From a virus: DNA of 64,000 nucleotides. Location of the stretch: the IMG/VR virus record IMGVR_UViG_3300042691_035162, positions 1 through 64,000 of that record; one strand, 5' to 3'. Shown in pieces: positions 8,168 to 62,338 of this stretch (position 1 is the first letter of the stretch; every line of letters begins with the position of its first letter). The notes beneath the pieces are model-generated. The model was not told the DNA's origin. It ran no database searches and worked only from the letters and a program-made list of their open reading frames with translations. The translations under genes were made by a program, and so were the position numbers.

Positions 8168-9076
8168 TTACGGCGTTCCGGGAGAACCGAAAATGCCGCG
8201 TGGGTCGCTGTAGCCGAAGCTATAACGCTCACGAGCCTTGTAGCGAACGTTGCCGGTGTCGAAGTCGCCTTCAAAACCAGTCTTGATCGCCACACGCTGG
8301 AACATCTTCATGCCGTTCGGGGCATCGGTCTTAATGAACCATGCGTCCGGATCGGTCAGGAAGTGGTTAACTGTGTAACCCTGGGGAATCATGCCCATGT
8401 TTTTGATCGCGTTGATGTCGTTGTCTGCAGTGCCAACACGCAGGGTGGACTTCATGATGCGATCAGCCGTGAACTGGAGTTCCTTCGGGATGATCAGTTT
8501 CAGACCTTGGATGGCGATCTTCAGACCACGCTCGTCCGTGAAGGCGGCGATGTCGATCAGGGCCTGCTCCAAAGAAGTCTCTGACAGATCCGCAGGGGTT
8601 GACAGTTCATTCTTCAGGTTAGGACCGGACAGGGTCGGGTGATCGTCAGCACAAAGGGGCTTGCCGTCGCCACCGATCGAGGTGGTGAAGGCGCCGTTCA
8701 GGACGGCGGCCGCTTTGATCTGCTTGGTCTGGGACATAGAACGAGCCAGAGCACGGGTGTAACGTGCAGCCAGACGGTCATAGAGGTTGTCCTCTACGGC
8801 CTCTTCTGTCAGCGCGAATGCCAGTGCGATGGTCTCGTGCGTGTACCGGGAAGCATAGACTTCTTGCGCGTTGTCATAAGCGACACCGGCGCCTTCAGCC
8901 TTGACGGGGGCGGTATTGAAACCGGAGAGCATAACTTCTTCTTCGAACGCGCGATCAGATGTCTCGACATCATAAATCTGGGCGTGCTCGTTTTCGTAGT
9001 TGCTGTACTCCAGTCCGAACAGAGCATTGAGACCAGGCTCAAGCTCGCGTACCAGTTGGGAACGTGAAATTGCCAT
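8168..9076 (-). CDS. Major capsid protein (Mu gpT-like)
   Basis: The 302-residue product starts MAISRSQLVRELEPGLNALF and contains YASRYTHETIALAFALTEEA and ARYTRALARSMSQTKQIKAA. It also has GGDGKPLCADDHPTLSG in the middle. This is the pattern of the Mu gpT-like HK97-fold capsid family, and the length is typical. No N-terminal propeptide is evident and no prohead protease is encoded nearby. Instead a separate scaffold gene is at 10181. The strong terminator behind it and its position between scaffold and adaptors support the call. Confidence 0.9.
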   Translation of the reverse strand: MAISRSQLVRELEPGLNALFGLEYSNYENEHAQIYDVETSDRAFEEEVMLSGFNTAPVKAEGAGVAYDNAQEVYASRYTHETIALAFALTEEAVEDNLYDRLAARYTRALARSMSQTKQIKAAAVLNGAFTTSIGGDGKPLCADDHPTLSGPNLKNELSTPADLSETSLEQALIDIAAFTDERGLKIAIQGLKLIIPKELQFTADRIMKSTLRVGTADNDINAIKNMGMIPQGYTVNHFLTDPDAWFIKTDAPNGMKMFQRVAIKTGFEGDFDTGNVRYKARERYSFGYSDPRGIFGSPGTP

Positions 9077-9089
9077 GACTTAGCTCCTA

Positions 9090-9680
9090 TTAGGGTGCGG
9101 GAGGACTGTTGGCAACACCAGCGCTGCCATACAAGTGACAGTTAATCTTAACAACCACATCTACATTTGCCTCACCAAGGACGTTATCGGTGGCACTGTA
9201 CGGGCCAACGATAGTCAGAACCTTAGTTGCGTCAACTGCGATTGAGGATGAGCTAAGTTCCGTACCAGAAACACCAGTCGTTGCGCTACCAGCAGCGTAA
9301 GCGATGTCAGCTTGCTTACCAATGTTGGCTTGTACAACGATACCGTCGGCCTGAATCAGGAACAGTTGGTTGGGGTCATCCAAAACTTCTGCCTGAATAA
9401 CGCCAGAAGTAATGTTTACCGAACCGGGGTAAAAGGCGCTCCATGTGGGCTTGCCAGTCGTCGGGTTAACGTAGTTGCAGCCGTTAAACACACCAACAGC
9501 GACGGTGTGCAGAGCAGCGTCAAACTTAACGACATAGCCACCAGAAATGGTCACCAGATCCCCTTGATAAATTGCGCCAGATTGGTTGTCCTCAATCAGG
9601 TAGGCGTACTGCTTCTGGGCACCAGTAGCAGACAGATTACCAAGAGGACGAAGACCAAAGGCTTTATCAACGTTTGCCAT
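9090..9680 (-). CDS. Capsid-associated (minor head / decoration) protein
   Basis: This 196-residue protein starts MANVDKAFGLRPLGNLS, a start I know from head proteins encoded just upstream of capsid genes in podo- and siphoviruses of environmental origin. The rest is beta-rich (DNQSGAIYQGDLVTISGG, later TVAVGVFNGCNY). Its position directly before the capsid gene suggests a decoration or minor capsid protein. It is separated from the capsid by 13 bases, so both are probably made in large amounts. Confidence 0.75.
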   Translation of the reverse strand: MANVDKAFGLRPLGNLSATGAQKQYAYLIEDNQSGAIYQGDLVTISGGYVVKFDAALHTVAVGVFNGCNYVNPTTGKPTWSAFYPGSVNITSGVIQAEVLDDPNQLFLIQADGIVVQANIGKQADIAYAAGSATTGVSGTELSSSSIAVDATKVLTIVGPYSATDNVLGEANVDVVVKINCHLYGSAGVANSPPAP

Positions 9681-9704
9681 TTTGTCTTTCCTTTAAAAGA
9701 TTAA

Positions 9705-10178
9705 TTACTCGGCCTTTTTAGGGCCACCGAATGTAACTCTAGACTGTCTCTCCGGCTTGATGACCTGCATAGATGAATGTGCGTTGGTCTTCAGTAAGTC
9801 GTTGTCAACAGCCTCAATTTGATCGCTCGTCCGCTGGTCGTAGTATTCCCTACGCTGATCGGCCATCTCTTCGGGGATCCTCGCCAACATTACGTCGCCA
9901 ACGCCAATGACGCCAGCATGAATGCCGTTTTGAATCGAAGGAGTAACGAAGTCGGGGTATTCCTCAGCCCGGACCAGCTCATAACCCTCACGGATCTTGC
10001 CAGCCACGTTCTTACTGTCATCCATACCGCCTGCTTCTTTACGAATCCAACGATGCTTATATCCCGGAGGTGCCGGAGGCGCATCCAAGTCGGAAGGACG
10101 AGACCATGACTTCTTACGCTCCGTTTTTGCACGGGTTTCAGCAGCACGTGATGTGCGATCGATTTCAGATTTAGTCAT
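9705..10178 (-). CDS. Head-region protein, unknown function
   Basis: The 157-residue product is highly charged. It has PPAPPGYKHRWIRKEAGGMD and GKIREGYELVRAEEYPDF, a combination I recognise from head gene clusters of aquatic podoviruses between scaffold and capsid. The N-terminus is basic (RAAETRAKTERKKSW). There is no membrane segment. It may be an internal or assembly protein; the sequence does not decide. Confidence 0.7.
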   Translation of the reverse strand: MTKSEIDRTSRAAETRAKTERKKSWSRPSDLDAPPAPPGYKHRWIRKEAGGMDDSKNVAGKIREGYELVRAEEYPDFVTPSIQNGIHAGVIGVGDVMLARIPEEMADQRREYYDQRTSDQIEAVDNDLLKTNAHSSMQVIKPERQSRVTFGGPKKAE

Positions 10179-10180
10179 GA

Positions 10181-11128
10181 TTATCTCCTTACGTACTTAG
10201 CGTACTCTTCCAGTGGGACACCTAATTTTCTTGCAATGGCCACCTCACTAGGTGTGAGTTTGATGGTCCTGCGCCCCGTTTGGCTCGCGGTCGAGCCGCG
10301 AGTAGCAGGTGCAACACCGGGGGCGTCCACGTTGGTGTTTACCTGAGGTTTCTTAAACTTGTGCGGAAGTTCCTTACGGATCCTCCGATTTAGCTCATCG
10401 TAATACTCATCACTTGACAAGTCAAACCCTTCTCGTTCTAGCTGGCCGTGGACAGCGTAGGCGACATTGGTCATGACTTCATCTTCCCCAAACCATTCAT
10501 TTTCATCGGCCCATTTCTGCGCCTTTGGATCAATGGCCTGTTGGGCGGCCTGTTGGGGTTGAACGTACTGTGGGGCCGGTTGTACCGCTTCCTGTTTCGG
10601 CGCCGCTTGACGTTGTTGAGCAAGAACGTTGGCTCTTTCCTGCTGCAGGATTAGTTGAGACATGAGCTTTTGGGCCTCTACAACAGCCTTTCCATCTCCA
10701 CGTTCTACTGCGTCTTGCAGGTTGGCTTCAGCAATAGCCAGTTGGGAATCCACCCGAGACTTAAACTCAGTCAGATAACCCTCATCCAGGGTTTGAACTC
10801 GAGACTGCGCAGTCTGAAGATTTGCCTGGACTTGACGAGCATAGTCTAAAGCAGCCTGTTCACGACGCTCGGCCTCGCGCAGGCGAGCCGTCATCTTGTC
10901 TAAACGCTTCTTAACTTTGTCGCTGTAATCCTGGTGCTCCGCAGCATCTGCCTGCTTTTTGGGCGGCGACTGCTCGACAACAGGTTCTTCTACCTGTTTT
11001 ATCTCAGCTTTGCCGTCCTCTGTGATCTCAACCTCGGCGCCCTGTTCGCCTTCGCCCAGGTTGAATTCCAGTTGATCATCCCCACTGGGGACCTGTACTT
11101 CTTCTTGAACTTCTTCGTTCTCTGGCAT
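10181..11128 (-). CDS. Head scaffolding protein
   Basis: This 315-residue protein has an acidic N-terminal third (GEGEQGAEVEITEDGK), a long central coiled coil (KVKKRLDKMTARLREAERRE and onward) and a basic C-terminus rich in Gln/Pro and Arg. Acidic N-terminus, helical rod and basic C-terminus directly upstream of capsid genes are typical of phage scaffolds such as T7 gp9 or P22 gp8. The C-terminal KLTPSEVAIARKLGVPLEEY looks like a capsid-binding helix-turn-helix. No protease domain is fused. Confidence 0.8.
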   Translation of the reverse strand: MPENEEVQEEVQVPSGDDQLEFNLGEGEQGAEVEITEDGKAEIKQVEEPVVEQSPPKKQADAAEHQDYSDKVKKRLDKMTARLREAERREQAALDYARQVQANLQTAQSRVQTLDEGYLTEFKSRVDSQLAIAEANLQDAVERGDGKAVVEAQKLMSQLILQQERANVLAQQRQAAPKQEAVQPAPQYVQPQQAAQQAIDPKAQKWADENEWFGEDEVMTNVAYAVHGQLEREGFDLSSDEYYDELNRRIRKELPHKFKKPQVNTNVDAPGVAPATRGSTASQTGRRTIKLTPSEVAIARKLGVPLEEYAKYVRR

Positions 11129-12358: not shown

Positions 12359-14768
12359 TCTGAACCCCCATCTGTTGTAGTCGCATTAAAGTGAGATCGG
12401 CCTTTTGATCGGCGATATCTTCCTGGGATTGAATTTTAGCGGCAGTTTCTGCCGCACGCTGCTGTAATTGCTGGGCCTGCAGGCCAATCTTCTGCTGGTC
12501 ATTCTGCGCAATCTGCTGGTCTCGGGCTGCCCGTTGTGCCAGTTCCTGCTCCTTGAGCTGAACCAGTGGATCAGGTGCGCCAGCACCAGACAGTTGTGAG
12601 GACAGTTGCCGCAGTTCTCCCATTCCCTGGGCCACGAGCATGGCAACCATTGCCTCTTTCTGGATGTCGGACACCATGCCCCGGTTCTCCGGGCCGTACT
12701 CCGTGAAGATCTGTGCCTCGACCTGTTCCTCCGCCTTCAGGCGCACGTGCTCGAGGATGTGCTTAGTCAGATTCATAGCAGCTAGGGGATTACCCTGAAC
12801 GATCGGGCTCATTCCCTGGAGCATGTGGCTCATTATGTGAGCGTCATGCTGCTGACCAGCAAAGGCCTTAAGCTTCTTGCCGTCAATCGCATCAGCGTTC
12901 TCAGTTGCCGGATCCTTGGGCTTGGGCTCTTGCGTATCGTCGTAGTTCAGGATCATGTCGATATCCCGAACTCCCAGTGCATCGTACATGCGGCGATAGG
13001 CCTCGTACATGTTGTGCATCTGCGGTGCAGACTGGGCCAGTTGTAACTGGGTCTGGGCCATCATGATCCGTTGGGACGTCGAGTAAATGTTCGGGTCTGC
13101 CACGGGCAGCACGTCAACACGCTCATCAAAATCCTCGCGGAAGATCTTCCGATCGCCACCCTCTACTTCGTACGGATACTCATCTGGCAAGTACTTGGCA
13201 AAGCACTTTGCCATCAATTCAAACTCAAGCTTCTGCGCATAGTGCAGCCGCTTGTGGATACCAGACATTACGTTGGCGCCCTTTTCCATTAGCGCCATGG
13301 TCGTACCTACGGCAGCCTGCTGGTTGCCATCACCCACCTGCATGTCAGCAATGCTTGCCAGGCGACGTCCACTGTCAATACAGAAACCCATCAAGGTAAA
13401 TAGCGTCTGACTTGGCTCCTTGTACGGCAGGGGCAGTAGCGACGAGGCCAGGTCCGCGCCACCCGCATCAATGTCCCGCCACTCGCCAGGCTGCAGCGGA
13501 TTGTCGTCATCCGCGATCCGCAAACCCCGTGCTTTAAACCCAGCCGGCAGGTTAGACAGCGTTCCAGCGTCCAACAACTGACGCAATGCGGACGTCGCTG
13601 CCCGGTTCAGGTTACCAATCAGGTGAATCAGACCATAGCCCATGCACCCCGGACCTGGTAGGAACATGTAATGAACGTAGTACTGCTCAGGGCAGCACGT
13701 CTCATCTTCCTCGGCCCAGTTACGATAGATCGACAGCACCTTGCCGCTGTCCTTGTCCACGGTAATGATGTATGGCTTCTTAATTCCGTTCTTGTCCTTA
13801 AAGCCCGGAACGTCATACAGAATGTGGGCCTCAAGCAGGGTGTACTCTTCATCCATGTAGCCAGGAGTCTGGCCAGAAACTTTGTCTTCTCCGTCCGTAA
13901 TCGGAGTCTCGCGGGGAGTTACGGCGCCACTTTCAAGGTTGATATCGCGGTAAGTGCCGTTGACCTGCGCCTTGCGCAGATCGTTCTTGGACATCGGAAC
14001 CACCTGGATGCAGCGCTCGTTCTCCCACGGATTGCTTGAACCGTGGTACGGCATCACAAAGTTATCCGGCACAATGAACGGCGACACACAGCGCTTTTTA
14101 TTCTTGTCGAAGTAAACCTTCTTGAAGGCCGACCCACCATAGCCCACGTACCACAGCATCTGGTCGTAGTCGGGGGTGTATTCCTTCATTACCGTCGTAA
14201 TCTGGTAGTTCATGAAATCTTTGACGCGGTTGGCCTGGGCTTCACGCTTGCGGTTGCTGGCGCCCATCACGTGCGTGCGCACGGGCCCGCCCGCAGGCAT
14301 GAGTTCTTTCATGGCCTGGGCAGAAAACTGTGTAATTGCCTCGGTCAACAGCGGAACAGATACCCCGGCCGCACCACGGAAAGGCTTTGTACGAACGTCG
14401 TACTGAAACCCAAGATTCTTAAACCCTTCTGAGTAGGTACGCTCCCACTCTTCGCGAGAGGCAACGTCCGAATCAAAATACTCCAGGATTTCGCTGCCGA
14501 TCATGGCCAAATCGTCATCGCTAAGTTTCTCGGCTAGGTTTTGACGATGTTTGGTTTCAATCTCGTCTTCTTCCTCTTCGCCCATCGTGATCGTAGCGCC
14601 ACCTTCCTCGTCAATCTCTACATTGACAAGTTCTTCATCGGTCTCAGGGTCCTTGGCCTCAATCTCTACCTCAACGCCGCCGCCTTCAGCCAATTCGACC
14701 ATGGGCTCAGTAGCCATCAAAGATTTTTCGATGTTGTTAGCAGTTGAGTTTTTCTTTCTTTTAGCCAT
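12336..14768 (-). CDS. Portal protein (P22 gp1-like)
   Basis: This is an 810-residue protein. A strongly acidic low-complexity N-terminus (about residues 20-75) precedes the conserved core with [40 protein letters not shown] and [21 protein letters not shown] Gln-rich helical C-terminus follows, which would form the barrel inside the head. Length and motifs fit the large podovirus portals. It lies next to the terminase and lysozyme-domain genes, as expected. Its stop codon lies within the next small gene. Confidence 0.88.
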
Positions 14769-17700
14769 TATGCTGCCCGATCATATAAGGGTTTATCGAC
14801 TATGCCGCCTTTAGCGAACCCTTCTGGGGCATCGACATAGCGAAGTTCTTTGGAAATATTAAACGGAATATCTTCCGGGGTTGTTTTGTTAATAAAGGCT
14901 TTTAGTTGGGGCAAGTAGTCTTCCGGCGTAACGTTAGAGGTCAACGGACCATTACCTTGCGCTTGCCGCATAGAAAACTTACCTGACTTTTCGCCCTTGA
15001 CCATTTCAACGTTAGTTACAGGCATTCCGTTCTTGTCGTATAAAACAAATAATTCTACATTCCCGTCTTCCAAGGCTTTTCGGCCATTATTAAACGGGCC
15101 ATATGACCCGTAATTGGCATATCCCTTGATGGAATTATCTAATACCGCAGACTGAATCAAAGTTGCATCTGGATCAACTATTTTTCTCCAGGTTGACCCG
15201 TCTGGCAGCTCTTGGAATACCTCTGTACCAAAAGCAAGTGCTTCAGGATCTACAAACTTATTGTTTTTTATGCTTTCTTGAATTTCATCCGCGCGAGCTT
15301 CTAGTGTTTTTTGTTTTACCGCAAGTTTTGATGCTCTAGAAACAAACGTAGCAAAATTAATGTCTTTTAATTCTTGCGTACTCATTTTACCGGCTTGTCT
15401 AGCCAGATCTTTTATGTCGTACCCAAAAAAGTCCATGTAACCACTACTGATGTCGAGTAGTGGTTGCCCTCGTTTCAACGCCTCGAGTTCGTTTTTGCTT
15501 AAATTTTCAGTAGCGTACCTTCCGTACAGTCCTTCGTACCGAGCAATGTCAGAAGGATTTACGTTTTCAGCATTTATGTTTATAAGTTTTGAAATCTTTG
15601 GCTCTAGAACAACAGAGAAGTACTCCGGGTTATTTTTTAACCGGGTGCGAATATCTGCTACGTCTGCTGGATCTTTGTTTGTTAGTTTAGACAACAGGTC
15701 ATCCGGTATTAACTCGGGGTGTTGCTTAAACTGAGCCAAAATATTTTGTTTAATGCTTTGGCTCATACGCTCGGTTTCTGCGTAAGGCTCTGCAATATCT
15801 TCTTTTGCCAAATTAATTTGACGGATTCCAAGCATTTGGTCATACCGACGCTCTAGGTCCCGCATAGCACTGATATCGCCAGATTCTGCTTCCCTAATAA
15901 GGTACTTTGGAAACAACTCTTCCCCTACTTCGCCTGGCATCTTAATCCGCCCGGCTATCATTTCTTTCTTTAACTCATCACTAATACTTCCTGCTCGTTT
16001 CTCAAAAAAGTCTCGTGCTTTTTTGTTAAACATCTCTGCAGCAGCCGTAGCTTTTTCCACATCTCCGCCAGCGGATTCCATCGCCTCCGTGGCGCCACGA
16101 CTAATAAGCCTAGATAGTTGGCTTCCCTCGCTAGTGAAGAATGTTCCGCCAGGGGCGCGGGAAATTGCGGGGGCCCCGGCTTGCATGATGCTCTTTTGGT
16201 TGAGCACGAAGTCCATCATCTGCTCTTTGGTAGCTTCCGGGTTGCCAGTAATCTTCCTAAACGTGGGCAACGTCATCTTCTCGACGCCTTTTTCGATCCC
16301 TGCAATGCCTTGTCTTGCCGCTGCCCCCACTGGGTATGGGCGTTGCAACTGCACTTGGGGCAGTGCTGCATCGAGTTTGTATTCTTGGGCAAGCCTGCCA
16401 ACGTTTTGGAGAGTCTCTTGGCCAGCCTCAGTACGCGGCTCGTACATGAACCGGCTTGGTGACACTTCTTTTGCGGGAACGCCACGCAGTACGTCATAAG
16501 CAATGGAGGCCGGAGCAGTCAGGCCGGACAACGCACTTAGTGCTGTCTCACCAGCCCCGATTAATTGCTGGCCGGGTGTGAAAGTAGGTTGAGGTACGGG
16601 CGCATCACGGACCACTCTTCCCTGCACATCCACCTGCGGCACTTCACTAATGGACGGCGCTCTCCGATTTACCTCGCCGCCGTCTTTGAACAGGCGCTTA
16701 CCGCCTTCGGTTGCGGCAGTGCTAAGTAGGTTTCTGTAAAGCATGCTGTTGAAGTCCATACCGGGGAACAAGTACATCCCGCCTATGGTGCCCGCCATAC
16801 CCAGAAATGCGCCTAAGCCATCATCATCTTTATCCGGCACGCGGTAAAACGGGTTTGGCTGCGCATCGATACCAAGCACCGACTCTTCTGGGGCGTAGTT
16901 GGTGCCGTACTTTGTGTTGTAGTCGCGTACAGCCTGGATGTATTGCTGGTCGAGAGCCAGCTTTTGGTTCTGGGCATCAATGTCCGCGTTCCACGGACGA
17001 TTGATCATCGTGCCAAAACGCTGCTGGTGTAACGGAGCCCAGGCCCCGTATGTCTCCCCCCATGTTGGCATAGGTGTGCCCGCTTTAGGTATGCCGGCAC
17101 CGTACTTCGCATCCCACTCGGCCTGCTGCCGCGCGGTTTCTTTTTGCAGTTCACTCAGTTGATTGAGTGCATTTTCTTGGCTGGTCGTAGCTAGGTTGAC
17201 GGGCTGGCCAAACTGCTTCTCGTGGAGTTTGTTCCACAGCGCCCCAACACCTTCGAGTGTCGGGCGAGCAGTCAGTGCCGTCGCTTCGCGGTACCGACGC
17301 TGCACCTCGGGCATCGTCACGCCAGTTACGCGGGATACTTGTTCCTGCGAAACGTTGTACTTGTTCATCGCCTCGGCAATCTGCCGATCCGTTAGCTCGG
17401 GCCTTTCCTTTAGGTACCGGGACACCTGTTCATCGCTAAACTTTTTTGCTTCGCCACCTTCGGCAAACCTCACGGGCATGCGCGGGACGGGTCTTCGCTT
17501 TGGCTCGCTCTCTTCTTGCGCTTTTGCCATGATCGCAAACGGATCTACCGTCTTTTCCGACGGCGCAAGGATCGAACCAATCTTTGTTCTCGTGCTGGAG
17601 GCTCCGGAACCGCCATCTTCAGACTGTATTTCCTCTAACAACTTCATCGCCTGGTCTGTTACCGACTCTTTTTCGGTATCACCAAGATAATTCGCAGCCA

Positions 17701-18163
17701 GAGCCATGCGATAACTTTCCGGCAACTGATTCGCAGACGCTACTTGGACCGTGGGCCGTGGTCCGGGTGCCTTGGTGGGTGCTTGAGCAGTCGAGACTTG
17801 CGTAAAATGGCTCAAGGACCTCGGACCACCCTCCATCTCTATCATCGCACGCTGCAAATCCCCGATTCTTTCTGCAGGGACCACGGACGACGGATCAAGG
17901 CCCGTCTTCTTGGCGACAAAATCGATGTAATTGCTTGTTTTGTTCTCGGACGGAGGTGCGTATTTGTTCAAAAAGGCAGAAAGAGTCAACCCGCGCTCTT
18001 GCGTGTCGAGTTCGATCTGTCTTTGCATGGCAGATAGTCCTGCTTCGGGAGTTTCAAAGCGAGCAAAGCCGCCTTCTCCTGGCGTAGCCCCCGGTTGATT
18101 AGCAAACCGCAGGTTTCCAGGATTATTGTTTCGTATGGATAGCGGTTCTTTGCTAACTGACAT
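14768..18163 (-). CDS. Large virion protein with N-terminal lysozyme-like domain
   Basis: The product has 1131 residues. The N-terminal part (about 1-115) has LSIRNNNPGNLRFANQPGAT, FETPEAGLSAMQRQIELD and LSAFLNKYAPPSENKTSNYI. This is the NNPGN(L/I)R-type peptidoglycan-degrading domain that phages carry in ejection proteins. Around residues 235-300 there is a unit (FSDEQVSRYLKERPELTDRQ onward) that recurs twice in the protein at 24695-25498. The rest is a long helical ejection-type protein ending in EGFAKGGIVDKPLYDRAA. The gene shares one base with the portal start. It probably travels in the virion and opens the cell wall during DNA entry. Confidence 0.8.
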   Translation of the reverse strand: MSVSKEPLSIRNNNPGNLRFANQPGATPGEGGFARFETPEAGLSAMQRQIELDTQERGLTLSAFLNKYAPPSENKTSNYIDFVAKKTGLDPSSVVPAERIGDLQRAMIEMEGGPRSLSHFTQVSTAQAPTKAPGPRPTVQVASANQLPESYRMALAANYLGDTEKESVTDQAMKLLEEIQSEDGGSGASSTRTKIGSILAPSEKTVDPFAIMAKAQEESEPKRRPVPRMPVRFAEGGEAKKFSDEQVSRYLKERPELTDRQIAEAMNKYNVSQEQVSRVTGVTMPEVQRRYREATALTARPTLEGVGALWNKLHEKQFGQPVNLATTSQENALNQLSELQKETARQQAEWDAKYGAGIPKAGTPMPTWGETYGAWAPLHQQRFGTMINRPWNADIDAQNQKLALDQQYIQAVRDYNTKYGTNYAPEESVLGIDAQPNPFYRVPDKDDDGLGAFLGMAGTIGGMYLFPGMDFNSMLYRNLLSTAATEGGKRLFKDGGEVNRRAPSISEVPQVDVQGRVVRDAPVPQPTFTPGQQLIGAGETALSALSGLTAPASIAYDVLRGVPAKEVSPSRFMYEPRTEAGQETLQNVGRLAQEYKLDAALPQVQLQRPYPVGAAARQGIAGIEKGVEKMTLPTFRKITGNPEATKEQMMDFVLNQKSIMQAGAPAISRAPGGTFFTSEGSQLSRLISRGATEAMESAGGDVEKATAAAEMFNKKARDFFEKRAGSISDELKKEMIAGRIKMPGEVGEELFPKYLIREAESGDISAMRDLERRYDQMLGIRQINLAKEDIAEPYAETERMSQSIKQNILAQFKQHPELIPDDLLSKLTNKDPADVADIRTRLKNNPEYFSVVLEPKISKLININAENVNPSDIARYEGLYGRYATENLSKNELEALKRGQPLLDISSGYMDFFGYDIKDLARQAGKMSTQELKDINFATFVSRASKLAVKQKTLEARADEIQESIKNNKFVDPEALAFGTEVFQELPDGSTWRKIVDPDATLIQSAVLDNSIKGYANYGSYGPFNNGRKALEDGNVELFVLYDKNGMPVTNVEMVKGEKSGKFSMRQAQGNGPLTSNVTPEDYLPQLKAFINKTTPEDIPFNISKELRYVDAPEGFAKGGIVDKPLYDRAA

Positions 18164-53418: not shown

Positions 53419-54009
53419 TCAGGCGAACTCTGTCCATCCGGTCAGGATGTACTTGACGCCAGATAACGGTGGGTTACCACGATGGGCCCACGGATAGTTT
53501 GAAGGAAATATTACTAATCGACCCTTTTTAGGGGCGACGCGCATGGACTGGTACAAAAATTCTGTTTCCCCGCCTTCCTCAACATCGTTGAGATAGAGGA
53601 TGTACACGCCAATGCGAAACGCGTGAGACTTGGTTCCGTCTTCGGAATGCCAAACGTGGTATCCACCACTGGGCAAGGTCTTTTGGACCTTGTAAGTATA
53701 AATAGTATGCTTATCGTAATCCAATAAGACACTGTAGTTTTCTAGATATTCTTTATAACATTGGGACCAAAACTTGTCATTAAAGTCGCATATAAAATTT
53801 TGTATATTCGGGTAAGAGAAATTTATTTCCGAATAGTCAGCGGGATTTAATATCGTAGAGTCATCTTTTTTAACACGTTCTTCTTCCGGGCGGGCGTACG
53901 TACGGTTGTTCTTTTGGCACCACTCAAAATATTCAATGAGTTGGTCGCACATCTGCTCCGAGATTGCGTTGTCGTATATGCCAACAAAATTTTGATACGT
54001 TGATTTCAT
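53419..54009 (-). CDS. 2OG-Fe(II) oxygenase, prolyl-4-hydroxylase-like
   Basis: The start MKSTYQNFVGIYDN at 54009 overlaps the upstream stop as ATGA. The 196-residue product has FVGIYDNAISEQMCDQLIEY at the start. The core is SGGYHVWHSEDGTKSHAFRI and GVYILYLNDVEEGGETEFLY, with VIFPSNYPWAHRGNPPLSGV and KYILTGW at the end. The proximal metal site is His-Ser-Glu-Asp (a canonical HxD is not exact), the distal His is in AHRG, and Lys of KYILTG could bind 2-oxoglutarate. GGETEF is typical of P4H-type enzymes. It is one of two such genes next to a collagen-like fibre gene. Confidence 0.85.
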   Translation of the reverse strand: MKSTYQNFVGIYDNAISEQMCDQLIEYFEWCQKNNRTYARPEEERVKKDDSTILNPADYSEINFSYPNIQNFICDFNDKFWSQCYKEYLENYSVLLDYDKHTIYTYKVQKTLPSGGYHVWHSEDGTKSHAFRIGVYILYLNDVEEGGETEFLYQSMRVAPKKGRLVIFPSNYPWAHRGNPPLSGVKYILTGWTEFA

Positions 54010-54614
54010 TTGAATGCCGGCCCACAAACCCAGACAACGATGGTTCTACGAATTCCGCTAGTAACTGGGGTAACCCTATGCAACACATAGCTAGGAAACC
54101 CAACGACTAACCCCCTTTGCTTCAACACTTTTGTTGGTGTAGACATAGTATACAGTTCCAAGTCTCCACCTTCATACTCTTCTGGATCGCTTAATTGAAG
54201 CACCAGGGAAAATTTTCTTGGCGGCGAAGATGTCCCACTTACACCGCTATCTGTATGCCAAGAATAGTGTCCGTTAGTAGAACTTTCGTAAACCGTGTAT
54301 TGAAGATCCTCACTAAACCCATATAGGTCAAACTTGTAAAACTGACCGTTCAGTTGCCTAGCAATGTATGCCAAGCGATCGTAAATCCATTGAGACTCAG
54401 AGTTCAAACCAATCCAAGCCACCTTTGACTCTCGTATCTCAGAGATATCTTCTTTCGTATCTACAGAACCAATAGTTCCTTTATTTACTGGTAATGAATC
54501 GCAGTAAGCAACTAATTTTTCAAGTTCCTCCGAGCTAAACCCATTTTCCCAAGTAGTAAAAGGATGCTCTGAAACTCCAAATGTAGGGGCTGGGGCAAAA
54601 ATGTAGTTGGCCAT
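54006..54614 (-). CDS. 2OG-Fe(II) oxygenase, PKHD-type hydroxylase
   Basis: The 202-residue product has ENGFSSEELEKLVAYCDSLP at the start and then the double-stranded beta-helix. HYSWHTDSGVSGTSSPPRKF gives the HxD metal site, LQLSDPEEYEGGDLELY follows, and VLHRVTPVTSGIRRTIVVW gives the distal His and the Arg that binds 2-oxoglutarate. All four key residues are present. The pattern is that of PKHD/PiuC-type hydroxylases common in marine and freshwater phages. Stop and start overlaps couple it to the second oxygenase and, by one base, to the collagen-like fibre gene. Confidence 0.88.
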   Translation of the reverse strand: MANYIFAPAPTFGVSEHPFTTWENGFSSEELEKLVAYCDSLPVNKGTIGSVDTKEDISEIRESKVAWIGLNSESQWIYDRLAYIARQLNGQFYKFDLYGFSEDLQYTVYESSTNGHYSWHTDSGVSGTSSPPRKFSLVLQLSDPEEYEGGDLELYTMSTPTKVLKQRGLVVGFPSYVLHRVTPVTSGIRRTIVVWVCGPAFK

Positions 54615-56406: not shown

Positions 56407-57375
56407 TTACGAAACGTCAGCCATGGCAAACGTGCCAAACCAAAATGAACCACCGTTAACGGTGAAAAAAGTAAGTACATCAATATCGTTAGCGCCGGTA
56501 GATAGCGTTGGCGGTAAAGCATTTGAGTATTTTGCGTTGGTAAAGGTTGCGGTCCTGTTACCTACGCCGTCTTGTCTTAAGATTATCGTCACAGAGCGAG
56601 AAACTCCCGCAGGCGGGGGATTAGTAAAAGTAAACGTAACGTTATTACCGAGCGTTATATCAAAGATGTTTGACAGAGAAAGGTCTATGTCATACGTAGT
56701 CGTAGCAATAGACGCTGTTGTAACCTCTTCCGAGTAAGCCTTTAAACGGCCTGTGTATGTTGTACTGGTCAATGCGCCGGTGCCTGGAACATATGTTAGT
56801 CCAGCAGAATCACTAATCGTACCGCTAGCACCGACAATTGCCACCCGGCCAGAAGTCAGCGTTGATCCACGCAGGCCGGCCGCTGTGAGATTCGTTCCAT
56901 CAAAAGTCAAGTTTGCAGAGCCAGCCAAGGCTCCACTTGCGTTGTACTGAACCTGGGTGTTGGCACCACCGGCTGAAGCACCGACCTGCACAAAGTCTAA
57001 CCCATTCCATGCAACCAAAGCTTTACTCGCCACTGGAATGGTAACGCCTGTAGTCGCTGCCGCCTTAATTACAACCGCTGCATTGGACTCGTTAATTACA
57101 ATGTAGGCTTTTGACTTGTTTGGAGCAATAATGTTTCGGGTTACGCCAGGAGATCCGGTGGCGATTAAAATGGCGCATCGCGCTTGGTTCGCGGCCCCTA
57201 AACCCGTAGTAGTCAAAGTCCAGTCACCTGCCGAGACAGAGTCTGTTGCAACACCGGCAACGGAGTCTTCTACCAGTTGGGTAATGCTGTTGTTTACAAC
57301 CGAACCCCAGGTATTTGGTAACTCCCCGGTAGTTGGCAGTGCAAAGCCCAACAGAGTCGTATAGTTAGTCGCCAT
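56407..57375 (-). CDS. Tail fibre protein
   Basis: The 322-residue product starts NYTTLLGFALPTTGELPNTW and has GSVVNNSITQLVEDSVAGVA, a start common in phage tail fibres of aquatic podoviruses. The middle has GNTQ-type repeats (NTQVQYNASGALAGSANLTF), and the end is beta-rich (ITLGNNVTFTFTNPPPAGVS). This suggests an N-terminal attachment domain followed by a trimeric shaft. Receptor binding is probable. Confidence 0.75.
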   Translation of the reverse strand: MATNYTTLLGFALPTTGELPNTWGSVVNNSITQLVEDSVAGVATDSVSAGDWTLTTTGLGAANQARCAILIATGSPGVTRNIIAPNKSKAYIVINESNAAVVIKAAATTGVTIPVASKALVAWNGLDFVQVGASAGGANTQVQYNASGALAGSANLTFDGTNLTAAGLRGSTLTSGRVAIVGASGTISDSAGLTYVPGTGALTSTTYTGRLKAYSEEVTTASIATTTYDIDLSLSNIFDITLGNNVTFTFTNPPPAGVSRSVTIILRQDGVGNRTATFTNAKYSNALPPTLSTGANDIDVLTFFTVNGGSFWFGTFAMADVS

Positions 57376-57399: not shown

Positions 57400-58350
57400 T
57401 CAGTGAATAATCTCCGTCCAATCCGGGGTCTCTGAATCATCAACATCCGTCCAAATTGTTGGTGGTGTAGCAATAGGTGCCCAACCTGTGGTCTGAGCAT
57501 TATCCACAACAGCCCAAATCCCGGTCTGCGAATCGTTAACATCTACCCAATCTGGAACTTGCGGGTCAGGGACATCTCCCCATACTAGCACGTTGGATAT
57601 CGTAATAATAGCCTGCTGGCCTACAAGAACCGCCGTAGCGCCACCGGCCGCCGTAACGTCTCCCGAAGAGATAAACATCGGCTGGCCGTTGGGCCTTGCA
57701 TACGTCGTAATCTTTACGGCAACGCTGTTCAGGAATGATGCAATCTCTTCGCCAGTAAGTTGTGTATTGGCATCTGCCGAGGCGGCCAAAGAGGAGATTG
57801 CAGATACGAGTTGCTGCGTCGTCAACGTTGCCGTTGCGTTGGCCTTGGCCACCAAACTGCTTTGCAACATCTGCAGTTGTTCGCCAGTGATCGTTCCAGT
57901 GGCATTGGCCTTGGCAATAACAGAAGACAGGGCTGTCGCAAACTGTTCGCCGGTTATGGGGACGTTGGCCTTGGCGGATACAGCCAAATTCTCCTGCAGC
58001 GCACTTAGGGTTTGCCCTAATAGCCGGACAGCGATCGTTATCTTGATCGTGCCCGTGTAAATATTTAACAACTCGCCAGTTAGGGTAGTCGAAGCCTTGG
58101 CGTCAATCGAAACGCTGGAGAGGAAAGACTGGATCTGCTCGCCAGTTAAGCGGTACCCAGAATTAGTGGTGAATTGGCCAGTAGCGAAATTGGCCTCTTG
58201 ACCGAACAACTCAACGTACGACCCAGCGGCAGCATCGATCGGGATTTGGATTAGCGTTAGTTCTTGCCCCGTCAGGGTCGCGAGCGCGGGTACGCCTGTC
58301 TTCGGGATCGAAGCAAACGGGACGCGGGCGAATGGGGCGAAACCGAACAT
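57400..58350 (-). CDS. Repeat-rich fibre protein
   Basis: The 316-residue product has an N-terminal attachment segment (MFGFAPFARVPFASIPKTGV) followed by about eight repeats of about 25-30 residues around (I/L)TGEQ...(S)AKA.A, such as GTITGEQLQMLQSSLVAKAN. The C-terminal 70 residues have Trp-rich units (WVDVNDSQTGIWAVVDNAQT). The short N-terminus with FAPFARVPFA-type sequence is often seen in phage structural proteins of this kind. It is probably a fibre or tail-surface protein. Confidence 0.7.
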   Translation of the reverse strand: MFGFAPFARVPFASIPKTGVPALATLTGQELTLIQIPIDAAAGSYVELFGQEANFATGQFTTNSGYRLTGEQIQSFLSSVSIDAKASTTLTGELLNIYTGTIKITIAVRLLGQTLSALQENLAVSAKANVPITGEQFATALSSVIAKANATGTITGEQLQMLQSSLVAKANATATLTTQQLVSAISSLAASADANTQLTGEEIASFLNSVAVKITTYARPNGQPMFISSGDVTAAGGATAVLVGQQAIITISNVLVWGDVPDPQVPDWVDVNDSQTGIWAVVDNAQTTGWAPIATPPTIWTDVDDSETPDWTEIIH

Positions 58351-58368: not shown

Positions 58369-59052
58369 TTAGCCAACATTGACAGGAGCAGTTCCACGTG
58401 AAACCTCTGGAAAAAGACAATCTTCGATAAACCGTTTGACCTCTGCCTCATCCAGACCAAGTGCCGACATCACCTTAGGCGTATGCGGGTTCTTTTTCTG
58501 GTTTTGGCAGTACCAATCCTGGGCCTCGGTGAAATCCACCCCACACGAGACTTCCCCTACATTTTCCAAGTAATAGTCAAGGTTAGCAATCACTAACTGC
58601 AGTAATCTCGAAAGTTCCTCTTCATCGGAAATGTTGCCGGCAGCCACCATGGAATCGCTAAATATTGCTTTGGCCCAGTCCGGCAGTTGACGGACCTTGG
58701 ACCACGAGTTTTTACTGACACGGACCTTGAACCAATCCAGCATGGGGTGTGATTGAGCTACCGGGCTAAAGTCATGAAATGCCCCGGTCACCTTGTTTGG
58801 CCCGGCAATGATGTCAAACCCAAAGATAGGTGCCGGATCGTCGGTGTGGGGGAACACCGTTAGATGAAGCATGTACAACTTCTTGGTATCCCTGGCATCA
58901 ACAATATCCAGGTGTGCGCGGCGGAAATTAAGTCCGGTGTAGACATAATTAGGCCAAGAAAACTGGTGACCTTCGTCTAACGGGGTAAATCTAGCTATAC
59001 GAGCGTGGAGTTTTGTTTCTGCGGCTTCAAGTTGCTGGAATATCGTAGGCAT
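58369..59052 (-). CDS. pcyX: Ferredoxin-dependent bilin reductase (PcyX/PebS-like)
   Basis: The 227-residue product contains HLDIVDARDTKKLYMLHLTV, DPAPIFGFDIIAGPNKVTGA and FHDFSPV. This is the core of the HY2/FDBR family (FG.D...V.G...D.SP), where the Asp after FGx is the proton donor. The heme oxygenase gene directly upstream overlaps it by 26 bases, so heme to biliverdin to a reduced bilin is encoded in one unit. Phage enzymes PebS (cyanophages) and PcyX (found in marine phage sequence and thought to be from phages of heterotrophs) make phycoerythrobilin. The absence of cyanophage traits here points to PcyX; the gene name is an informed guess. Confidence 0.85.
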   Translation of the reverse strand: MPTIFQQLEAAETKLHARIARFTPLDEGHQFSWPNYVYTGLNFRRAHLDIVDARDTKKLYMLHLTVFPHTDDPAPIFGFDIIAGPNKVTGAFHDFSPVAQSHPMLDWFKVRVSKNSWSKVRQLPDWAKAIFSDSMVAAGNISDEEELSRLLQLVIANLDYYLENVGEVSCGVDFTEAQDWYCQNQKKNPHTPKVMSALGLDEAEVKRFIEDCLFPEVSRGTAPVNVG

Positions 59053-59560
59053 TGGCTAACTCGTCAAAAAGTTCAAGAACAAAGTCAAACGCCTTATTTG
59101 CTTCATCCCCAAGGTCGTCGGAAAGTTTACTCCGAACTCTGTTGATAAGTTCTGCCCTATCCTTAAATTCGTACATTCTGCCTTGGCTTGGGACAACCTT
59201 CTTTAACATTTGACCCCCATACATATCCCCAAAATGCCGGACGTAAATATGGGCCATTAGTTTTTCTGCTGGGACGTTATTTAAGTAAGAAACGTAATTA
59301 GAAGTAGCTTTTCTAAATCCGGGCTTCTCTCCAAGTTCTGTCAAGTCTTCCTGCATCAAATCAGCCCGTCGAATGTCTTCAATGCCAAACAACAAACCGT
59401 ATCTTTGAGCCAACGACTCTAGCCTAGAGTAGGCCACTAATTGGTTGAAAAGAAAATCCGCATAAATATTTTTGGGCATTTCCCCAGAGAACAAAAGCTT
59501 AACAAAGCGGTGGTTTTCCGCCTTGTCGTGCTTTTCTGCTATTTTGTCCCTAAGTGCCAT
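59027..59560 (-). CDS. hemO: Heme oxygenase
   Basis: The start MALRDKIAEKHDKAENHR at 59560 is chosen; the longer frame from 59644 lies in the upstream gene. The 177-residue product has KIAEKHDKAENHRF with the proximal His, as in cyanobacterial HO1 (KKSHTMAENT). The distal helix is HFGDMYGGQMLKK, matching GDLSGGQILKK of HO1. Length is slightly below the usual 210-240. It opens heme to biliverdin, iron and CO using reduced ferredoxin. It overlaps the bilin reductase and the carbamoyltransferase genes. Confidence 0.92.
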   Translation of the reverse strand: MALRDKIAEKHDKAENHRFVKLLFSGEMPKNIYADFLFNQLVAYSRLESLAQRYGLLFGIEDIRRADLMQEDLTELGEKPGFRKATSNYVSYLNNVPAEKLMAHIYVRHFGDMYGGQMLKKVVPSQGRMYEFKDRAELINRVRSKLSDDLGDEANKAFDFVLELFDELANAYDIPAT

Positions 59561-61352
59561 TTCTAATAGACAAAAGTTTCGAGTACTCTGGGAGATAAAG
59601 ATACTCAATATTTGACTGTTGCAATGTCCAAAGAGCGTCTTCAAGAGTTTCTACTAAGGGCTCGCCGCCTAAGTTAAAACTTGTGTTAAACACAATTGGT
59701 ACCCCGGTCTTTTCCTTGAACTTGCTTATAAACCGATAGTACAACGGGTTTTCATTCTCTGTAACTGTCTGGATTCGGCATGACCCGTCTACGTGAATGA
59801 TCGAAGGGATCTTTTCCTCCACGCCCGGGCGGCAGCTTACCGCGTACATCATGTGCGGACTTGCTTCCATGCCTTTTAGATCGAACCACTCGTGGACATC
59901 TTCCTTAAGAATAGAACCGGCAAACGGTCGGAAATACTCTCGGCGCTTTACCGTATTAACGTAGTCTTTCCCGTCCTTAAATCTTGGGTCAAATAAAATG
60001 GATCGGTTTCCAAGAGCCCTCGGTCCGTTCTCAGAACGTCCTTGAAACATCGCCACAATGTTTTTAGACGTCAGCATATCGACGATTTTTTCATCATTAG
60101 CATCTTCGACAGACGCTCCGTACTTGTCACAAAGATCTAGTATTTGCTGTTCTGTGTACTCATACTTGGGACCAAGGTAGATACTACTAGGCGCTTTTTT
60201 AGTCGACCCGGTTAGGTTGTGGTAAAACCACAAAGCAGCTCCTATAGCTGTCCCGCCGTCGTTTGATATTGGCTCAACATATAGTTTTATACCTAGTTCA
60301 TTTAACTTGTCTAAGTAAAAGTAGTTTGCTACACAGTTAAGGCCATACCCCCCAGCTAAAACTACGTTTTTCTTACCGGAAAGTTCAGATGCACGAATTA
60401 TTAGTTTTAAAACTTGCTCTTGGGTTTGAGTTTGCAGGGCATACGCTAAATCCCGCCTGTTTTGTAGTTGTGTTAAATCCTTAACGCTAACAGTAGGATC
60501 ATCCTTAAGCTCTGCAATAAGGTTTCTATTTACAAAGGCAGACCCAGGATACGTTGGTATTACTAGGTTTCGATCAACTAAATCAAATGGGAAGACGTCA
60601 GACACAGTATTGAATAACGGTGGGATAGCAGCATTTGGTTTTCCGTAAGGAAAAAGTCCCATTGTTTTACCGGCTTCAATACCCTGAAACCCACAGTACT
60701 CTGTTACTGCTTCGTATAGTTTTACAATGCCAGCCCTGTCCGTTATGTAGGCCTCTACGTCCTTTTCCTCTAGAAATGCATCCTTAGGAATAGTTACTTT
60801 ATCGCAAGGAACTATATCCCTACTTCCATAATGCTTATGGAGGGTGGAAAAATTATTTGGATAACTACAGTCATAAATTGTTTCGACCTCCCACAACATG
60901 GCAGGCATATTTCCAAAACTAACTTGTTTACAAGATCCTGCCCCGTCCACCACGACTGCCACAGCCTCATCAAAACCGCTTCTGTAAAACGCCATAGAGG
61001 CATGGATTTTGTGATGATGTTCTGCTAAATCAACTACTTGCGGATGGTTAAAGATGTCAGTTTTTCTATTGATCAGCCCAAGCTTACGAGCAAGCCCAAC
61101 ATAAACATTGTCGCCCGTGTAATCCACGTTTTGAGAAACTGCTTGCATGGTTTGGGTATGAGAAACAACAACATAATCTACCTTATCCGTGTAGTCCAAT
61201 ACCTTCATCATTGCAGCATATGGGCCGCCATCATATTTGTGACGGCTAAGCCTTTCTTCCTCAACAGAGAAAACAATTTCTCCATCTTTTAACAAACATG
61301 CCGCTGCATTATGGCCTCGGCTAATTCCAAGTATGTATCCAGTATTTGTCAT
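59550..61352 (-). CDS. Carbamoyltransferase (NodU/CmcH family)
   Basis: The 600-residue product has GYILGISRGHNAAACLLKDG and FSVEEERLSRHKYDGG in the N-terminal ASKHA-like domain, EHHHKIHASMAFYRSGFDEA with the metal-site histidines, AVVVDGAGS, and KNVVLAGGYGLNCVANYFYL. GRSENGPRALGNRSIL marks the C-terminal YrdC-like domain. Length is normal. Such enzymes transfer carbamoyl groups to sugars or to secondary metabolites and occur in T4-like and other marine phages. Next to a GT9 transferase it may modify a surface glycan or the phage fibre. It is coupled to its neighbours by 4- and 11-base overlaps. Confidence 0.9.
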   Translation of the reverse strand: MTNTGYILGISRGHNAAACLLKDGEIVFSVEEERLSRHKYDGGPYAAMMKVLDYTDKVDYVVVSHTQTMQAVSQNVDYTGDNVYVGLARKLGLINRKTDIFNHPQVVDLAEHHHKIHASMAFYRSGFDEAVAVVVDGAGSCKQVSFGNMPAMLWEVETIYDCSYPNNFSTLHKHYGSRDIVPCDKVTIPKDAFLEEKDVEAYITDRAGIVKLYEAVTEYCGFQGIEAGKTMGLFPYGKPNAAIPPLFNTVSDVFPFDLVDRNLVIPTYPGSAFVNRNLIAELKDDPTVSVKDLTQLQNRRDLAYALQTQTQEQVLKLIIRASELSGKKNVVLAGGYGLNCVANYFYLDKLNELGIKLYVEPISNDGGTAIGAALWFYHNLTGSTKKAPSSIYLGPKYEYTEQQILDLCDKYGASVEDANDEKIVDMLTSKNIVAMFQGRSENGPRALGNRSILFDPRFKDGKDYVNTVKRREYFRPFAGSILKEDVHEWFDLKGMEASPHMMYAVSCRPGVEEKIPSIIHVDGSCRIQTVTENENPLYYRFISKFKEKTGVPIVFNTSFNLGGEPLVETLEDALWTLQQSNIEYLYLPEYSKLLSIRNGT

Positions 61353-62338
61353 GATTTTTGGGGCTCACAGCAGGACTCGTTGTAGGAAAGGGCTTTTTTA
61401 ACTTGCTCTTGAAATTTATTTTTACCAAGAGTTGTACGCACCTGTTTTAATATGTCCTTAAAAACCTCGTCTGGGAGAATCATTAAGTCTTCATTGGATC
61501 GTTCCATAAACAAATCCTGCGAAATGCGCAGCGGGGAGTATGTTCTTTTCCCGAGTCCAATATCAAATATCTTAAAATTCGGATTTTGTGGGTAGCTAAT
61601 GTTCTCTGGAAACGTAGAACCAATAACCACTGTGGCAGGTTTATGCAAAGCATTAGCGTAATGCTGTCCCACGCTATCACATCCGATAAAGTAATCTGCC
61701 GCTTTAAAAATACCCATCCACTGGAGCAAATTAACGTTCTCAGGAATTACCGCCGGCATCGGCTTATCCGTTGGGATTTTAAACCCAGACATTAGTACTA
61801 TTGCGTAGTCTTTTCCAAGTTCTTCGACCAGCCGCATTAAATCCCTAACCTCAAAGCTTCTGCCGGAATCATCAGTAATAAAATTGCCGTCTAACTTAGC
61901 CGTGCTTCCAAAGGGCTGGAAAACTATTACTTTGTCTTTCTTTAGTTGAACTTTTACATTCATCAAAAAGTTATAGCCAAAAACTTGGTCTGCCTTTCCT
62001 ATGGACAAATTAAAAGGCTTTGTTTCCGGTACTTCTTTAAGTCCATTAACAAGCATATCAAAGGCCTGTATTAAGTTACATTTTTGGTTGTAATACTCTT
62101 TAAGGCGATACGGCTCTGGACTAACTATTTCACGAGAAATAATCTTGTCTGAAAATAAGTTTCTGTGATGGGCCGGGTAAACCCTATCCCTCAGAATATC
62201 ACTTGTTACAAACAACTCGGACCATGATTCGGCCACAACAATAGAGTCATCTTTGTTGTTCAAAAAATAGTGCTCTAGTCCTGGGATAGAACACAAGACT
62301 CTTCCTACTCCGCCGTTTATAAAAAATGCTTTACTCAT
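61349..62338 (-). CDS. Glycosyltransferase family 9-like protein
   Basis: The 329-residue product has FFINGGVGRVLCSIPGLEHY (Gly-rich N-terminal loop), VIVFQPFGSTAKLDGNF and KAADYFIGCDSVGQHYANAL with HKPATVVIGSTFPENISYP. The last segment is the GT9 (ADP-heptose:LPS heptosyltransferase) sugar-nucleotide site. It probably transfers sugar to a glycan or protein. It starts this short operon behind the terminator at 62378-62405 and is coupled to the carbamoyltransferase by ATGA. Confidence 0.78.
   Translation of the reverse strand: MSKAFFINGGVGRVLCSIPGLEHYFLNNKDDSIVVAESWSELFVTSDILRDRVYPAHHRNLFSDKIISREIVSPEPYRLKEYYNQKCNLIQAFDMLVNGLKEVPETKPFNLSIGKADQVFGYNFLMNVKVQLKKDKVIVFQPFGSTAKLDGNFITDDSGRSFEVRDLMRLVEELGKDYAIVLMSGFKIPTDKPMPAVIPENVNLLQWMGIFKAADYFIGCDSVGQHYANALHKPATVVIGSTFPENISYPQNPNFKIFDIGLGKRTYSPLRISQDLFMERSNEDLMILPDEVFKDILKQVRTTLGKNKFQEQVKKALSYNESCCEPQKS

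Follow-up and report, generated by a model that had tools for sequence, protein, structure and literature searches.

Why would a virus encode a heme oxygenase (HO) overlapping a bilin reductase (FDBR) when no photosynthesis gene accompanies them? The question is raised by a two-gene locus within a 64,000-nt window, the whole stretch of DNA analyzed here, which makes up nearly all of a 64,913-base IMG/VR record. The original prediction, made from the sequence, described the two genes as one unit in a phage without cyanophage traits. The coordinates of the genes and their neighbors are given in Table 1.

Table 1. Features of the HO/FDBR locus and its surroundings, in window coordinates.
Feature	Position	Strand	Basis and remarks
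Heme oxygenase (HO), HemO type; biliverdin-forming expected	59027..59560	-	177 aa; PF01126, catalytic residues, fold
FDBR of PcyX type; phycoerythrobilin synthase expected	58369..59052	-	227 aa; PF05996, PcyX clade, residues, fold
Overlap of HO end and FDBR start	59027..59052	-	26 bases; from gene coordinates
Nol-like carbamoyltransferase	59550..61352	-	PF02543/PF16861; phrog_1601, E 6.8e-165
Glycosyltransferase-like protein	61349..62338	-	weak PF01075; phrog_8954 (unknown function), E 1.7e-128
Tail-region protein	57400..58350	-	18 bases downstream of FDBR; relatives adjoin the cassette
Tail-region protein	56407-57375	-	next in chain after 57400-58350; further tail genes beyond
Two 2OG-Fe(II) oxygenases	53419-54614		same module as the cassette

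Both translations contain the motifs noted in the original prediction (GDMYGGQMLKK in the HO and FGFDIIAG in the FDBR), and both match their Pfam families above the cut-offs, PF01126 (Heme_oxygenase) with E 1.9e-17 and 64 bits against 23, and PF05996 (Fe_bilin_red) with E 6.3e-21 and 75 bits against 31. Relatives were found in 339 (FDBR) and 176 (HO) viral contig stretches, which rules out chance for the two ORFs. The HO starts at the ATG at 59560, where the starts of its relatives align with MALRD. A TTG start at 59644, given by a mechanical ORF list, was rejected, as the overlap with the carbamoyltransferase would then be 95 bases and the relatives use the ATG. At the 80 FDBR loci nearest to that of the window (of 339), the HO lies directly upstream wherever the contig reaches, mostly overlapping, in agreement with the overlap originally described. 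The exact length of 26 bases recurs in L003, L005-L007, L014-L016 and L022, with other lengths in most relatives, and the overlap suggests that translation of the two genes is coupled.

The HO has the proximal His and the GDxxGG distal helix of HemO-type heme oxygenases, and residues H11, E15, R65, D112, G115 and G116 are invariant across 24 phage homologues. Its AlphaFold2 model (pLDDT 95.9) superposes on solved heme oxygenases (Foldseek TM ~0.83 to HmuO, rat HO-1 and Synechocystis HO-1), so that this short protein still holds the HO fold. Compared with its counterpart in L003 (3142-3675) the HO is 71% identical, with 86-89% for the FDBR, carbamoyltransferase and glycosyltransferase, indicating that the HO evolves faster than the remaining genes of the operon.

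The reductase is most similar to PcyX. Its best PDB match by phmmer is PcyX_EBK42635 (5owg; 198.5 bits, E 8.8e-58), 135 bits above Synechocystis PcyA (63 bits, E 2.1e-16). In the gap-free part of the alignment, window residues H47, D49, H63 and D80 correspond to chain positions 61, 63, 77 and 94 of 5owg and, because the native protein begins at chain residue 9, to His53, Asp55, His69 and Asp86 of PcyX. The Asp55 (D49), His69 (H63) and Asp86 (D80) positions are all retained. Asp55 has been called PcyX-specific, and is missing from the CB_2 enzyme, which was first filed as PcyA/X and makes phycocyanobilin (PCB) (Wegner et al. 2024, PMC11480375). The critical residues of PcyA are Glu76, His88 and Asp105, the first of which is absent in PcyX. 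Glu occupies the Asp55 position in all four PcyAs compared, and the window FDBR departs from the PcyA triad in having Asp (D49) for this Glu. Among 118 distinct viral-type FDBRs the position is Asp in 116 and Glu in two, with the His and the second Asp kept in every one.

A maximum-likelihood tree of 47 rows, in which some references are partial and several branches long, placed the window FDBR in a clade with 5owg and the reductase of phage Mosig (support 97/98), separate from PcyA (98/95) and from PebS, including that of cyanophages. The tree had neither alphaproteobacterial PcyA sequences nor the CB_2 enzyme, and the border to the alphaproteobacterial PcyA clade therefore rests on the residue comparison. 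Placement outside the FDBRs and loss of the catalytic Asp had been named at the outset as findings that would count against the assignment; the protein falls in the PcyX clade, and D49 and D80 are both present in the alignment. Structure prediction, also proposed then, gave an FDBR fold (AlphaFold2, pLDDT 93.6) with PcyA and PcyX structures as top Foldseek matches. By sequence the window reductase is a PcyX, about half or less identical to the characterised PcyX.

It is very unlikely that the enzyme functions as a PcyA and makes PCB, for example to charge a host phytochrome. The NCBIfam PcyA equivalog model does match it, at 97 bits, far under the cut-off of 206, and the name PcyA was not adopted on that account. 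Freshwater phage CB_2 has a PCB-forming FDBR able to charge Cph1, but that enzyme lacks Asp55 (PMC11480375), unlike the window FDBR, which has D49 where PcyAs have Glu76 and clusters with PcyX. Searches of this record and 22 related records found neither a PHY (phytochrome) domain nor a phycobiliprotein. A different case is presented by the FDBRs of L072 and L258, which are PcyX-like in sequence apart from a Glu in place of the Asp (RRAHIEIVD) and are possibly PCB-forming variants.

The view of the two genes as one unit is borne out by their overlap, but the unit is larger, since the carbamoyltransferase upstream overlaps the HO by 11 bases and belongs to the same operon. A chain of touching genes on the minus strand opens with the glycosyltransferase-like gene (4-base overlap with the carbamoyltransferase) and continues through the carbamoyltransferase, HO and FDBR to the tail-region proteins. 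Counterparts of the carbamoyltransferase (86%) and the glycosyltransferase-like protein (89%) are found in L003, where the former also adjoins the cassette, and relatives (45-52%) of the 57400-58350 protein adjoin it in L003 and L004; this protein gave no family match among Pfam and PHROG profiles. The cassette lies in a variable tail-fibre operon, behind the carbamoyltransferase, and from this position it would probably be expressed late in infection.

The pairing is nearly constant. An FDBR is present within about 3 kb on either side of 78 of the 80 nearest HO loci (of 176). Since both 80-locus sets consist of the nearest matches and include some redundancy, these proportions hold for this clade. 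Exceptions among the FDBR loci are a few with one intervening gene, and two (L073 and L074, 8820-10004) in which PcyX directly follows an AlaS-like gene and no HO was found in the locus, a broken version of the cassette of three genes already published. In comparison with L003, dN/dS is ~0.04 for the FDBR and ~0.16 for the HO, and across close pairs it ranges over 0.04-0.17 and 0.10-0.23, respectively, with dS near saturation in some pairs. Both genes are under purifying selection.

A bacterial origin for the locus was considered and rejected: when 84,980 species genomes were scanned, five matches came up, all on MAG contigs (one, L087, was read closely), and misbinned phage contigs may well account for them. 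Among the 385 and 369 proteobacterial genomes sampled, only four besides two seed MAGs had an FDBR-family match, and in the two of these four that were read the match was not PcyX-like by sequence. Plasmids gave no match.

What kind of phage carries the pair? Phage DSL-LC04, from Dishui Lake, has a core collinear with that of the window (TerL 65%, portal 57%, MCP 89%, Pol 64%), and HTVC023P-type pelagiphages and phage 023Pt_psg01 are relatives as well. DSL-LC04 has a predicted gammaproteobacterial host, and HTVC023P-type phages are Podoviridae infecting Pelagibacter. Terminase, portal, capsid and polymerase are shared with these podoviruses, in the same order as in DSL-LC04, and on these similarities the carrier is a short-tailed phage of the DSL-LC04/HTVC023P type, its host probably lying within the Pseudomonadota. 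The window has no tRNA gene, and so gives no hint of the host from that source.

The statement that the phage lacks cyanophage traits holds, with one nuance. A Pfam scan of the remaining ORFs of the record found no photosynthesis family, and searches of all 64,913 bases found no phycobiliprotein, PHY or 2Fe-2S ferredoxin (PF00502, PF00360, PF00111), as had been claimed for phycobiliprotein, photosystem and other photosynthesis genes. Among named phages, however, the carbamoyltransferase is closest to proteins of cyanophages S-SSM7/S-SSM6a (58.7%), and it was the only gene matched in a DNA-level search against named phages. This match, together with terminases 45% identical to that of the window in Planktothrix and Synechococcus phages, would fit a cyanophage whose pigment serves the host phycobilisomes during infection. 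The core genes are nearest to those of DSL-LC04, the pelagiphages HTVC027P and HTVC023P, and roseophages, however, and with the photosystem, phycobiliprotein and ferredoxin families not found in the record, such a role is highly improbable. The window phage is probably not a cyanophage.

Unlike the window, the DSL-LC04/HTVC023P-type podoviruses and a 60-kb relative with 91% TerL identity do not carry the HO and FDBR. That relative is one of 21 terminase relatives, many of them incomplete records, in which neither gene was matched. A related terminase (64% and 51%) is encoded by two further phages with the cassette, and in another three the terminase is distantly related (37%). The pattern is one of gain or loss of the cassette among close relatives of the window phage. 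The T4 capsid protein Gp23 is encoded in seven of 25 cassette records, including Mosig; its presence in some carriers, and a DSL-LC04-type core in the window, show that the cassette is spread over unrelated phage lineages.

Homology, catalytic residues, folds, gene overlap, purifying selection and near-constant pairing were obtained directly, and the reactions and product are drawn from characterised relatives: phycoerythrobilin (PEB) is the product of PcyX, and in vitro activity has been shown for both CB_2 enzymes, the HO and the FDBR (PMC11480375). The pair is very probably a two-enzyme auxiliary metabolic cassette with a predicted activity from heme to biliverdin to PEB, a pink pigment. 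HemO would open heme to biliverdin IXalpha, with release of CO and Fe(II), and PcyX would convert biliverdin to PEB in a four-electron reduction that passes through 15,16-dihydrobiliverdin. As no ferredoxin was found in the record, the electrons would have to come from host ferredoxin. Among the outcomes originally proposed was a phycobilin, and a PcyX-type FDBR with intact catalytic residues would be expected to yield one, namely PEB.

Heme oxygenase chemistry releases iron, and it is a reasonable, if less than even, possibility that iron is the point of the cassette, with HemO supplying iron-dependent enzymes of phage or host with Fe(II) taken from host heme, and the reductase serving just to clear biliverdin, which would otherwise be toxic or stay bound to the oxygenase. 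The same module encodes 2OG oxygenases that depend on Fe(II), and in several relatives such genes lie between or beside the HO and FDBR; an iron role was mentioned by Wegner et al. (PMC11480375). Yet 2OG oxygenases also occur in the cassette-free DSL-LC04, HTVC023P and 023Pt_psg01, and strict pairing with a constrained, product-specific reductase bearing the PEB-type Asp exceeds the needs of clearance. The counts (78/80 paired, 116/118 with this Asp) and the strong constraint on the reductase favor the bilin as the selected output, and we infer, more tentatively than for the pathway itself, that the bilin and not iron alone is kept by selection.

The purpose of phage hemO-pcyX has been described as still enigmatic (Wegner et al. 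2024, PMC11480375). Because the reductase is under strong selection and no antenna or phytochrome gene was found in the carrier phages, one rather speculative suggestion is that short-tailed phages of heterotrophic proteobacteria make PEB for an undescribed non-photosynthetic use. If so, it might load a host bilin-binding regulator, for example, or have a late redox or anti-oxidant role.

The gene pair itself is an already known kind of system. Wegner et al. 2024 (PMC11480375) described the hemO-pcyX pair from freshwater phages and from marine phages that resemble pelagiphages, and the cultured Pelagibacter phage Mosig EXVC030M carries it as well. The surprise first expressed at bilin genes outside cyanophages was thus overstated, although the genes are real. 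With the published cassettes (PcyX_EBK42635, Mosig and the contigs of Wegner et al. 2024) the window shares the two genes, their order and overlap, the PcyX-type Asp and a neighborhood of tail/neck genes. Mosig, like the published marine contigs, is a T4-like myovirus, whereas the window phage is of the short-tailed type and has no Gp23; its FDBR and HO are 47.9% and 31% identical to those of Mosig, which, unlike the window phage's record, has a ferredoxin. The freshwater CB_2 cassette (hemO, PcyA/X and alaS; PMC11480375), from a phage assigned to a non-photosynthetic host, likewise joins an HO to an FDBR of the PcyA/PcyX branch, but its PCB-forming reductase lacks the Asp present in the window (D49), and no alaS was found in the window phage's record. 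Cyanophages P-SSM2, P-HM2, P-SSM4 and P-SSM7 (ho1/pebS/pcyA) also bear heme oxygenase and FDBRs, the latter from other branches (PebS, or PcyA with Glu76). HO and FDBR are apart in P-SSM2, P-HM2 and S-SSM6a, in contrast to the window, and photosystem genes lie near the HO in P-SSM2 and P-HM2. The locus adds one more case to the published puzzle of a pigment pathway in phages of non-photosynthetic bacteria. It extends the carriers to a second type of phage, shows the cassette gained or lost between closely related phages, and supplies counts for the pairing and the Asp; the short-tailed lineage, the presence/absence pattern and the counts may be new in the openly searchable literature.

Several minor features were seen along the way. 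Between TerL and portal the window encodes a 1131-aa protein with a transglycosylase-like start (14768-18163), where DSL-LC04 instead has a PcfJ-like gene; in the nearest relative the match covers just part of the protein (42% over 166 aa). Genes read from their motifs as 2OG-Fe(II)-oxygenase-like lie between HO and PcyX in L004 (9429-9974), L008 (9368-9997) and L013 (3948-4523). Such oxygenases were rejected as a specific partner of the cassette, since they occur too in relatives without it, and a shared hot spot is more likely. In L065 (8793-10001) an isocitrate-lyase-like gene, identified by reading the sequence, separates HO and PcyX. In Mosig electrons could come from the phage's own 2Fe-2S ferredoxin domain (MT647606.1, 2758-3000), of which the 23 cassette records searched gave no other example. 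In L087 (PBPT01000016, 335 kb, filed as a Neomarinimicrobiota MAG) the HO, a nitrilase-like gene and PcyX adjoin at 8276-10573. This phage-like contig probably belongs to a jumbo phage that was binned as bacterial; it has a permuted tmRNA at 860-1204, a type that hints at an alphaproteobacterial host.
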